Shown: positions 53,079 to 62,415 of the stretch, one piece after another | How positions within the stretch are numbered: the stretch's first letter is position 1 | Layout: the number at the start of each line of letters is the position of its first letter | NCBI RefSeq assembly: GCF_024345575.1 | Contig: NZ_JAGQBJ010000002.1 | Location: 186,001 to 250,000 of the forward strand | Source of the DNA: Cyanobium sp. Morenito 9A2 | GTDB lineage: Bacteria; Cyanobacteriota; Cyanobacteriia; PCC-6307; Cyanobiaceae | Direction: 5' to 3' | Length of the DNA stretch: 64,000 nucleotides | The notes under the pieces: generated by a model | What the model saw: only the letters and a program-made list of their open reading frames with translations | What the model was told of the DNA's origin: nothing | The model's database searches: none | Position numbers and translations under genes: made by a program

Positions 53079-53309
53079 TCAGCCCGGCAGCAGGTCAGGC
53101 TGGTCCTGCTCATCGCTGAGCTCGACAATGGCGCGCTGCACAGGCTTGATCGTCGAATCCTCGAGCAGCCCATCGAAATCATCGAATCGACGCTGCTTGG
53201 CGCGGAAGGCGATCTTCACGGTGGTGAGGTAACGGTTGCTCGACTGACGGATCAGGCTTTCGGCCCGCTGGGCCAGTTCCTTGGGGGTGACGTCAATACC
53301 GATGAACAT
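53079..53309 (-). CDS. rpoZ: RNA polymerase omega subunit
   Basis: Small subunit that stabilises the beta' subunit. 76 residues: [21 protein letters not shown] and [18 protein letters not shown], with the cyanobacterial ending [15 protein letters not shown] 53309. Divergent from the Hsp70 gene; about 100 bases separate them. Confidence 0.92.
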
Positions 53310-53408: not shown

Positions 53409-54974
53409 ATGTCCAAGGACGGCACCCTGGCGATCGACCTGGGCAGCACCACCACGGTTGTGGCCTTCCAGGCCAGCGACGGCAGCCCCCCCCAACTGCT
53501 GGACCTCCCCCCCTACAGCTGCGGCGATCCCGTTGTGATCCCCAGCCTGCTCTGGTTCAGCGGACCCGAAGACCGCTATCCCCTGATCGGCCGCCAGGTG
53601 CTCGATGCCGGCACCAGGCCGCAGGAGAGCCCACTGCTCTGCAGGGATTTCAAACGACGCATCGGCGCCCCCAGGGACGGCGAAGCTGGGGCGGCGACTC
53701 CCCTGGCACCGGAGCGGGTCGGGGGGCTGCTCCTGGAGCGGATCTGGGAGCAGCTACCGGAACAGCACCAGCCCCGACGCCTGGTGCTCACCGCCCCGAT
53801 CGACAGCTACCGCCGCTACCGGCAGTGGTTGCAGGAAGCCACAGCCGCCCTGCCCGTGGAAGAGATCGCCCTGGTGGATGAACCCACCGCTGCGGCGATC
53901 GGCGCCGGCTTGCCCCCCGGAAGCCTCGTGCTGGTGGTGGACCTGGGGGGCGGCACAATCGATCTCTCCCTGGTGGCCCTCGAGGGCGGGGAGGGCAAGG
54001 CGGCGCCGATCGCCCAGTTGCTGCGCTTCGCTGGCCGCCGCCTCGATGACAGCCGCCAGGCCCTGCGCTGCGCCCGGATCATCGGCAAAGCCGGTCTGGC
54101 CCTGGGGGGACGAGACCTCGACCGCTGGATCGCCGCTGCCCTGGTGCCCCAGGCTGCCCCCTGCGCCAGCCTTCTGGAGGCGGCTGAGCAACTTAAATGC
54201 GCCCTCTCCATCGCCCCCCAGGCCCTGGTGCACTGGGCGCCGGAGCTGGGCGGGCCGCCACGGGCCCTGCAACTCGAACGCAACGCCCTCGAGGCCCTGC
54301 TGCGTGCCCACGGCCTGCTGGTGGCCCTCGATCAGCTGCTGGAGACGGTGCTAGCGGCAGGCCGGGCGCAGGGCCTGGGCCTGCAGCAGATCGATGCCGT
54401 GCTGCCCGTGGGCGGCAGCAGCCGCATTCCCCTGATCCGCCAATGGCTGAGTGAGCGCTGCCCTGGGGTGCCGCTGCGGGATGAGCGCCCGATCGAGGCC
54501 GTCGCACTGGGGGCCCTGGCCCTCACCCCCGGCGTTCAGGTGAGGGACGTGCTGACCCGCGGGGTTTCCCTGCGCTGCTGGGACCGGCGCAGCTTCGAGC
54601 ACCGCTGGCATCCGTTGTTCCTGGCCGGTCAGAGCTGGCCCACGGTCCGGCCCATGGAGCTGGTGCTGGCCTGCAGCCGAGATGGCCAGGCGGAGCTGGA
54701 GCTGACCCTGGGCGAGCCGAGGCCAGACGATCGTTCTGAGGTGGTGTTCATCGATGGCCTGCCCCAGTTGCGCCACTGCCCGGCGGGGGCCGTCGCCGTG
54801 GAGCCCTGGGCTGGACCGCCTTTGCTGTTGCCGCTGGATCCACCCGGACAGCAGGGTGTGGACCGCCTGCGACTGCTCTTCAGCATCGACAGCGCGGGGC
54901 AATTGCGGCTGGAGCGCAACGACCTGAGCACCGGTGACCATGCCCCGGCGCTGGTGCTGGGCGCGGTGCGCTGA
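53409..54974 (+). CDS. Atypical Hsp70 (DnaK-like) protein
   Basis: 521 residues. The ATPase domain (1-~375) is recognisable: IDLGSTTTVVAF (phosphate 1, about 9-20), VDEPTAAAIG (157-166), DLGGGTIDLSL (178-188) and the adenosine block LPVGGSSRIPLI. The remaining ~140 residues fit only the beta part of a substrate domain and lack the helical lid of DnaK (~630-640 residues). Such short Hsp70s occur in several cyanobacteria and their clients are unknown. It is divergent from rpoZ and precedes a membrane-anchored unknown. Confidence 0.85.
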   Translation: MSKDGTLAIDLGSTTTVVAFQASDGSPPQLLDLPPYSCGDPVVIPSLLWFSGPEDRYPLIGRQVLDAGTRPQESPLLCRDFKRRIGAPRDGEAGAATPLAPERVGGLLLERIWEQLPEQHQPRRLVLTAPIDSYRRYRQWLQEATAALPVEEIALVDEPTAAAIGAGLPPGSLVLVVDLGGGTIDLSLVALEGGEGKAAPIAQLLRFAGRRLDDSRQALRCARIIGKAGLALGGRDLDRWIAAALVPQAAPCASLLEAAEQLKCALSIAPQALVHWAPELGGPPRALQLERNALEALLRAHGLLVALDQLLETVLAAGRAQGLGLQQIDAVLPVGGSSRIPLIRQWLSERCPGVPLRDERPIEAVALGALALTPGVQVRDVLTRGVSLRCWDRRSFEHRWHPLFLAGQSWPTVRPMELVLACSRDGQAELELTLGEPRPDDRSEVVFIDGLPQLRHCPAGAVAVEPWAGPPLLLPLDPPGQQGVDRLRLLFSIDSAGQLRLERNDLSTGDHAPALVLGAVR

Positions 54975-55097
54975 TTGCAGCGGCCCGGGCCCAACGACTG
55001 CCAATGCACCGAGGGACGACGGCCGCTCTGCCCCCTCGAGCCGGTGACGGTACCGGCGTATTCCTAGAACAGAACGACGCTCCGCCCCTCCCCTGCC

Positions 55098-55928
55098 TTG
55101 GCCATCCGCCGGCACAGGCTTCCCCGCTTCTGGCTCGCGCTCACCCTTGGCCTGGTGGGCGGCGCCGTGCTGGCGGCCCACTGGTGGGAAACCCAACTGC
55201 CCGGGCGCCTCGAACAGGCCGCCCGCAGCGGCCGCATCGATGACTGCCTGCGCTTCAGCGAGCAGCTGGCGGCCCTGCGCTGGCTGGGGGATCGCGCCCC
55301 CCAGGAGCAGGGTCAATGCCGGCGCCTCAAGGCCGAAAGCCTCTGGAAGGCTCAGAAATGGCGAGAGGCCCTGAGGCTGCAATTGCAGCTGGTGAACTCC
55401 GAGACGGGGAGCCCCGAAGACCAGCAGCAATTGCTCGCCTGGCAAAAGCAATTGCAGCAGGCCGCCCTCACCCGCTACCGGAAAGGGGATCTGAGCGGCG
55501 CCCTGGCGCTGCTGGCCCCCATGAACGAAGACCACCGTCCCGATGGCAGCGCCCTGGGGGACAGCCTCAAAGAGGAGTGGGCGCGCAACCGGCTGCAACT
55601 GGAGCGCAGCCGCACGCTGATCGCGGCCAAGCGCTGGTGGGAAGCGCTCGATGCCCTCAACCGCATCGACCAACCCTGGTGGAAGGAACGCTCAAAGGCC
55701 CTGCGGCAGCAGGTGAACGCGGGCCTGCTCACCCTCAAGTCCAAGGATGAAGACCATCACAGCCACGAGGGCGCCCTCCCCTCCAACGTGCCGTTGGATC
55801 AGCTGGATGCTGCCGTGCGCCGTCACATCGCCCAGGGCATGGACGACTTCAAGGCTTTCAAACTGGGCTGCAGGGACCTGGGGGGGAAAGTGGTGGAGTC
55901 CGGTCCCGAGAGTGCCTGCCAGCGCTGA
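55098..55928 (+). CDS. Membrane-anchored protein with helical repeats
   Basis: 276 residues from TTG 55098: a basic start, one membrane helix (FWLALTLGLVGGAVLAAHWW, about 11-30) and a helical soluble region with TPR-like spacing (LKAESLWKAQKWREALRLQL; YRKGDLSGALALLAPM; RWWEALDALNRI). The C-terminal tail is His/Asp-rich. I recognise no family. It follows the Hsp70 gene by about 120 bases on the same strand and could be a membrane partner. Confidence 0.65.
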   Translation: MAIRRHRLPRFWLALTLGLVGGAVLAAHWWETQLPGRLEQAARSGRIDDCLRFSEQLAALRWLGDRAPQEQGQCRRLKAESLWKAQKWREALRLQLQLVNSETGSPEDQQQLLAWQKQLQQAALTRYRKGDLSGALALLAPMNEDHRPDGSALGDSLKEEWARNRLQLERSRTLIAAKRWWEALDALNRIDQPWWKERSKALRQQVNAGLLTLKSKDEDHHSHEGALPSNVPLDQLDAAVRRHIAQGMDDFKAFKLGCRDLGGKVVESGPESACQR

Positions 55929-55992
55929 AGGGCCCCCCTTCGTCACTCCCGGGCCACCCATGACAGGATTGGCTCCAGCGCGCCCTCAACCG

Positions 55993-56214
55993 ATGCAGAC
56001 GGGAGATCAGGTCAAGGTCAGCACCTCGGTGGTGGTATTCACCCACCCCGACCATCGCGGCCAGCCCTTTGATCTCGAAGGCCAGGTGGGCCAGGTGCAC
56101 CAGGTGCTCAGCGAGTGGAAAGGGCGGCCGATCAGCCCGACCCTGCCTGTGATCGTGGCCTTCGGCAAATTTCGTGCCCATTTCCGGTCCGACGAACTGG
56201 CGCCGCTGGCCTGA
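55993..56214 (+). CDS. ftrV: Ferredoxin-thioredoxin reductase, variable chain
   Basis: 73 residues of the small SH3-like subunit that supports the catalytic chain of ferredoxin-thioredoxin reductase, passing light-derived electrons to thioredoxins. GDQVKVSTSVVVFTHPDHRG and EWKGRPISPTLPVIVAF are characteristic. ATG 55993 matches family length; ATG 55960 is in frame upstream. The catalytic chain (ftrC) is not in this window. Confidence 0.88.
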   Translation: MQTGDQVKVSTSVVVFTHPDHRGQPFDLEGQVGQVHQVLSEWKGRPISPTLPVIVAFGKFRAHFRSDELAPLA

Positions 56215-62388: not shown

Positions 62389-62415
62389 TTAGCACTCGGA
62401 CAGCTCGAGTGCCAA
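62389..62415 (-). promoter_or_regulatory. CIRCE operator (HrcA site) of groESL
   Basis: TTAGCACTC, nine bases, GAGTGCCAA. The consensus is TTAGCACTC-N9-GAGTGCTAA, so there is one mismatch in the right arm. It lies 56 bases upstream of groES, the usual place, so groESL should be repressed by HrcA until heat stress. Confidence 0.9.

Follow-up and report, generated by a model that had tools for sequence, protein, structure and literature searches.

In canonical Hsp70 chaperones the linker reads D-V-L-L-L-D and the contacts to the J-domain are made by R167, N170 and D393; in DnaK, the positions that are altered in the protein described here have roles in docking of the J-domain, in linker coupling and in the substrate arch. 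Deletion of the lid from DnaK renders substrate binding and release 10-100 fold faster, according to the accessible part of PMC7083937. The nearest known architecture to that of our protein is found in yeast Ssz1 of the ribosome-associated complex (RAC): in the same part of that source (PMC7083937), Ssz1 combines an unusual linker with a complete beta substrate-binding domain (SBD-beta) and has no alpha lid; it occurs as part of a complex with Zuo1 and shows no ATP hydrolysis. The cyanobacterial Hsp70 that we analysed resembles Ssz1 in these three architectural traits, but its family keeps the catalytic residues, as judged from the alignment, and it is without a known partner. Published work on cyanobacterial Hsp70s concerns, in the portions of it available to us, DnaK1, DnaK2 and DnaK3, and the lid-less protein is a further one; the open-access literature yielded expression data and no functional study of this lid-less family. 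Three DnaK copies are described for most marine Synechococcus of one group in the accessible part of PMC7522525, and these may include the lid-less Hsp70.

The window, a stretch of 64,000 nt from Cyanobium sp. Morenito 9A2 (contig NZ_JAGQBJ010000002.1, positions 186,001 to 250,000), contains the features collected in Table 1. The original prediction had seen in it a 521-residue Hsp70 homologue with three ATPase motifs, which is borne out by the open reading frame and by Pfam: the translation contains IDLGSTTT, DLGGGTIDLS and VGGSSRIP, and the HSP70 family matches residues 99-376 (1.3e-19; 70.4 bits, where the cut-off is 20.6). MreB matches more weakly (residues 121-213, 1.6e-9); both Pfam families match all 69 aligned sequences, HSP70 with the better best E-value. 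The protein does not reach the score of a DnaK equivalog in NCBIfam (61.9 bits against a cut-off of 648), and its best-scoring profile there, that of the Fe-S assembly Hsp70 HscA, remains at 73.2 bits far under its curated cut-off (620 bits); unlike our protein, HscA possesses a lid. The N-terminus begins directly with the first ATPase strand, with no signal sequence recognisable by eye. The HSP70 profile has four matches in the window's genome, namely two full DnaKs (L001 and L002), the lid-less Hsp70, and one weak match with a 400-residue frame, which is probably MreB.

Table 1. Positions of the features discussed, counted from the first nucleotide of the window.
Feature	Position	Strand	Basis or remark
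Membrane-like ORF, 243 aa	50567-51298	-	By eye
Small RNA-polymerase-subunit gene	53079-53309	-	Pfam RNA_pol_Rpb6 4e-7; divergent from Hsp70
Lid-less Hsp70 ORF, 521 aa	53409-54974	+	ATG start; Pfam, AlphaFold2, alignment
27-residue ATPase-domain insert, codons 196-222	53994-54074	+	Compared with the genome's own DnaK
Linker DVLTRG, codons 380-385	54546-54563	+	Compared with D-I-L-L-L-D in the genome's own DnaK
Arg/Trp/His substrate-loop signature, codons 389-401	54573-54611	+	Aligns to the first substrate-binding loop of DnaK
Neighbour, 276 aa, single-pass membrane protein with helical TPR-like body	55098-55928	+	TTG start
FtrV, ferredoxin-thioredoxin reductase variable chain	55957-56214	+	Pfam FeThRed_A 3.4e-27
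CIRCE-like inverted repeat	62389-62415		One mismatch; upstream of groES-groEL

For comparison, 110 Hsp70 proteins were reduced to 70 with less than 85% mutual identity and at least 480 aa, and the final alignment comprises 69 rows, in which the window protein stands for L005 and L028 is omitted for its over-extended start. Structure prediction, which had been named as a test of the missing lid, gave on this alignment an AlphaFold2 model (mean pLDDT 89.1, pTM 0.77) with an ATPase domain at about residues 1-371, a linker at about 372-385 and a beta substrate-binding domain at about 386-519. The last helix of the ATPase domain ends at residue 371 and none follows it, while residues 386-519 form 11 strands; the suspected absence of a helical lid is thus confirmed in the model, which retains the beta substrate domain. 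In VIA, the ATPase domain superimposes on the nucleotide-binding domain of DnaK with Z 34.8 and an rmsd of 2.8 over 338 residues. VIA also aligns the model over both domains, at large rmsd, to DnaK with and without its lid, and Foldseek matches it to DnaK, BiP and Hsc70, some of them lid-truncated; these matches include DnaK without lid (5obu, by Foldseek and VIA) and lid-truncated BiP (7a4v and 7a4u, by Foldseek). The rmsd across both domains (8.8 to 19 in Foldseek and VIA) reflects the arrangement of the domains and is not proof of overall likeness, and the lack of a family from the lists of fold matches is uninformative. When only the C-terminal part was made into a profile, it matched DnaK residues 419-491 (score 34.0, E 4e-4), whereas none of 20 column shuffles of this profile scored above 18.6. 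Taken together, the model, the two-domain alignments and the C-terminal profile match indicate that the predicted structure of the window protein is one without a lid but with a beta substrate-binding domain. The aligned proteins, window included, have 515-547 residues (median 529), so that the window protein is not a local truncation, and from position 371 onwards 149-160 residues are left in all 69 rows.

The lid-less form is found in nearly every genome that we sampled in the class. Within the window's taxonomic family, the Hsp70 was matched at E 0.001 or better in 150 of 151 genomes and in all 94 that are at least 90% complete; the ten genomes without a strong match (worse than 1e-70, or none) are all less than 90% complete. 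The gene is retained even in genomes of 1.6-1.9 Mb. All 194 genomes of a sample of the class gave a match, 190 of them at E 1.0e-48 or better, and the four weaker ones are G156 (2.3e-35), G230 (4.4e-39), G248 (1.7e-15; 83% complete) and G280 (1.5e-12). The same species may be represented by loci from two collections. When 146 genomes of the phylum were searched with the 69-row profile, 64 of them belonging by kinship to the window's class, which we take to be Cyanobacteriia, and 82 to other classes, full-length matches were obtained in 63 of the 64 (E 1.7e-178 or better), the exception being G280. The other classes yielded three (G355, 7.6e-156; G343, 5.9e-141; G336, 3.5e-96), and among their remaining genomes one had no match at all and the others scored merely as ordinary Hsp70s. 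The three other-class genes (L159, L160 and L161) share 47, 44 and 33% identity with whichever of five reference sequences is closest; they may have originated from contamination, the assembly of G355 being 7% contaminated. Beyond the phylum, the sole genome searched (G438) gave 2.2e-17 at best, which provides no basis for a restriction to the phylum, and viral sequences gave one partial, weak match (36% over residues 198-276). Several cyanobacterial genomes carry a second lid-less paralogue; in the paralogues L162-L170 the linker has R or Q followed by H, and the position of W400 is occupied by Y or F.

In a FastTree phylogeny the two DnaKs separate from the lid-less proteins with a support of 0.978, a split that is partly built in, as the tree was rooted on those two DnaKs alone, and deep internal nodes are weak (0.011 and 0.343). 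A widespread cyanobacterial family of lid-less Hsp70s with intact catalytic residues is real, and the window Hsp70 is its picocyanobacterial member.

This distribution bears on a role in the assembly or repair of photosynthetic complexes, comparable to that of DnaK3. Full-length matches in 63 of 64 genomes of a photosynthetic class against 3 of 82 elsewhere would fit such a role. However, G343, G355 and G336 possess the gene and gave no match to PsaA/PsaB or Photo_RC, and G280 matches PsaA/PsaB and Photo_RC and is without the gene. These two sets of exceptions weaken a function confined to photosynthesis, and we consider a photosynthetic role quite unlikely. G280 is a single-contig photosynthetic genome of 3.8 Mb (PsaA/B at place L157) that lacks the lid-less Hsp70 and has few Hsp70 matches overall.

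We mapped DnaK-equivalent positions by aligning the family with the two DnaKs encoded in the window's genome, and the residue numbers and roles applied to them are those which we take to hold for E. coli DnaK. The ATP site is conserved: no row of the 69 departs from the equivalents of D8, K70, E171, D194 and T199, and those of glycines 341 and 342 are invariant too, with variation at the positions of G198 (S in 16 of 69) and T11 (S or N in 47 of 69). Catalytic residues kept to this extent argue against ATP binding without hydrolysis as in Ssz1, and thereby against a pseudo-chaperone that would bind ATP without cycling and serve as scaffold or regulator of another chaperone, perhaps at the ribosome. 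Apart from the architecture shared with Ssz1, this explanation can draw on two RAC chains, 7x3k_B (rmsd 8.8, TM 0.57/0.59) and 6sr6_C (9.5), which we take by title and length to be Ssz1 and which have the lowest overall rmsd among the best 50 Foldseek matches; by E-value, however, they rank only 28th and 50th, and human Hsp70 (7kw7_C) has an equal TM (0.58/0.59). Nor do the loci suggest a partner. In 20 loci from other families, no gene family recurs beside the Hsp70 in more than four (E 1e-8, ORFs of at least 80 aa), setting aside antisense and out-of-frame shadows of the Hsp70 itself, which recur in up to eight of the 20, although partners encoded elsewhere may exist. A loose text pattern for J-domains hit one of 903 ORFs outside the family (L118), a doubtful match that does not resemble a J-domain, and one of 874 ORFs in the family loci. 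An Ssz1-like function is, on balance, unlikely.

With the DnaKs of its own genome, the window protein shares the ATPase fold, the catalytic residues, the D and L of the linker and the SBD-beta, but it lacks the lid, is longer by about 25 residues in the stretch from D185 to G233, has a shorter IIB region, and is changed in the LLD part of the linker, at the J-contact and in the substrate loop. The 69 rows have 46-63 residues between D185 and G233, 65 of them 48-51, whereas each of the two DnaKs has 23. In the linker, D388 is kept in all rows and L390 in 68 of 69, whereas L391, L392 and D393 are replaced: L392 gives way to H, R, K or Q throughout, and D393 to G in 49 rows and S in 20. All 69 rows have D in place of N170. 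At the R167 position all 47 picocyanobacterial rows have A, while the 22 rows from other families have R (17) or Q (5), so that a loss of J-coupling may be confined to picocyanobacteria. The substrate loop is marked by R389 and W400, invariant in the 69 rows, and by the nearly invariant W391 (65 of 69), R394 (66), H398 (65) and H401 (64); its signature is incomplete in the three other-class genes and nine paralogues, where W400 is replaced by Y or F. Such residue changes suggest that coupling to J-proteins is altered and that the groove is changed and probably narrower.

The lid-less family probably includes the Synechocystis protein annotated as slr0086, an assignment that we draw from annotation, not sequence, and slr0086 is presumably none of DnaK1, 2 or 3. 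As given in the available part of PMC3564720, slr0086 is annotated as 'similar to DnaK protein' and its transcript is up at 72 h in ethanol; a report of which we likewise have only a part describes the protein as raised under H2O2 in wild type and mutant, and a third publication refers to the response to ethanol. This published stress induction could be read as that of a spare DnaK which does the job of DnaK2 under stress. The differences in linker, J-domain contact and substrate-loop residues speak against this, as do the retention of the gene in the small genomes mentioned above and the location of the window's CIRCE-like element at groES-groEL with none at the Hsp70, and a spare DnaK seems very unlikely to us.

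We favour, at about even chances, a lid-less cyanobacterial Hsp70 that acts as an ATP-driven switch of its beta domain, with weak and fast binding of dedicated cytosolic clients in a housekeeping function. The protein would bind and hydrolyse ATP and use it to switch the beta domain; the missing lid would let weakly bound clients on and off fast; and the Arg/Trp/His-bearing groove would restrict binding to few or dedicated cytosolic clients instead of accepting any hydrophobic stretch. At least in picocyanobacteria, the changed J-contact residues would probably mean that the Hsp70 does without the normal DnaJ trigger or has its own partner. Its role would be that of a housekeeping assembly or holding chaperone; if the identity with slr0086 holds, its level would rise under oxidative and ethanol stress. 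A bolder reading, which we put forward only tentatively as somewhat unlikely, is that of a class of ATP-hydrolysing Hsp70s without lid or standard DnaJ trigger, which nearly all cyanobacteria would retain as a fast, specific switch for one conserved cytosolic client, with the insert as site for a new partner; in that case the altered linker, the change of N170 to D and the Arg/Trp/His groove would together make the client switch. The protein keeps this fixed form in nearly every sampled genome of the class and shows patterned differences in linker and substrate loop; as a natural lid-less bacterial Hsp70 with intact catalytic residues, it would allow one to ask which functions depend on the lid and on J-coupling.

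Several other genes surround the Hsp70. We read the small RNA-polymerase-subunit gene as RpoZ, and many of the 20 family loci have a small minus-strand ORF at this site. A gene for a DUF1818 protein lies upstream of the Hsp70 on the opposite strand, and the membrane-like ORF of Table 1 has no Pfam match at E 0.001. We rejected heat-shock control of the Hsp70 through CIRCE, as the single CIRCE-like site of the window belongs to groES-groEL, the groES frame of which was recognised by eye.

The original prediction had also joined the Hsp70 with the gene behind it into a chaperone unit at a membrane, in which the helical membrane protein would be a dedicated cofactor that brings the Hsp70 to the membrane. 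For the neighbour, 54 proteins and that of the window were reduced to 33 at less than 90% identity, and searching and folding used 32 rows, with the over-extended L083 left out. The expected single membrane helix corresponds to one hydrophobic segment at residues 11-27, whose Kyte-Doolittle mean is 2.04. The TPR-like helices were recovered only in part: the model (mean pLDDT 86.1, pTM 0.62) has a helical body and a small C-terminal beta hairpin, but the likeness to TPR by sequence is weak, as no Pfam family reaches its cut-off on the window protein and TPR families match few of the 32 relatives, and these weakly. The best fold match in the PDB is LapB (E 9.1e-3). Adjacency, too, holds within limits. 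Wherever the neighbour was matched in the window's family (79 of 151 genomes), it is the next gene 3' of the Hsp70 on the same strand, 17-197 bp after its match (79 of 79), but tblastn with the window protein as query did not find it within about 6 kb of the Hsp70 in any of the 20 other-family loci.

Even inside the family, the Hsp70 also occurs without the neighbour. Among genomes at least 90% complete, the neighbour is matched in 66 of 94 and unmatched in 28, against 94 of 94 matches for the Hsp70, and 14 of 20 family loci with 6 kb of sequence on either side lack it, pyrR following the Hsp70 there on the other strand (L043 ends inside the Hsp70 and is uninformative in this respect). In G160 a full-length homologue of the neighbour (6.4e-40) and FtrV sit about 2 kb apart, whereas 0.9 Mb separates this homologue from the Hsp70. 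The flank N-terminal of the hydrophobic segment is the more positive one, predicting an N-in orientation, in 28 of 32 relatives, with four ties and no opposite case; if this prediction is right, the soluble part and a cytosolic Hsp70 are on opposite sides of the membrane, the former in the periplasm or lumen. All 33 rows share four cysteines (C50, C74, C258 and C274), which together with the charge pattern fit an exported, disulfide-bonded domain. Should these topology predictions hold, the main parts of the two proteins do not meet. Distribution and predicted topology are the points on which the idea of a membrane unit fails; we consider it highly improbable, and the neighbour is probably a syntenic passenger and not part of the Hsp70 system.

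By co-occurrence in picocyanobacteria, the neighbour goes with FtrV, not with the Hsp70. FtrV follows it directly in 45 of 47 loci that have the neighbour, and the genomes of the two exceptions (G025 and G054) contain no FtrV; the 14 loci without neighbour are all without FtrV, which was not matched anywhere in these 14 genomes. Loss of FTR in Prochlorococcus has been published (PMC9025218, in the part accessible to us). With two FtrV queries, tblastn found no FtrV near the Hsp70 in the 20 other-family loci. The link between neighbour and FtrV is not general either, since no FtrV lies near the neighbour-like gene in four other genomes fetched with flanks (L178-L181). The gene between neighbour homologue and FtrV in G160 is, in our reading, PP2C-like. 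The four-cysteine neighbour, which is gained and lost together with FtrV in picocyanobacteria (55098-56214 in the window), may have a redox link.
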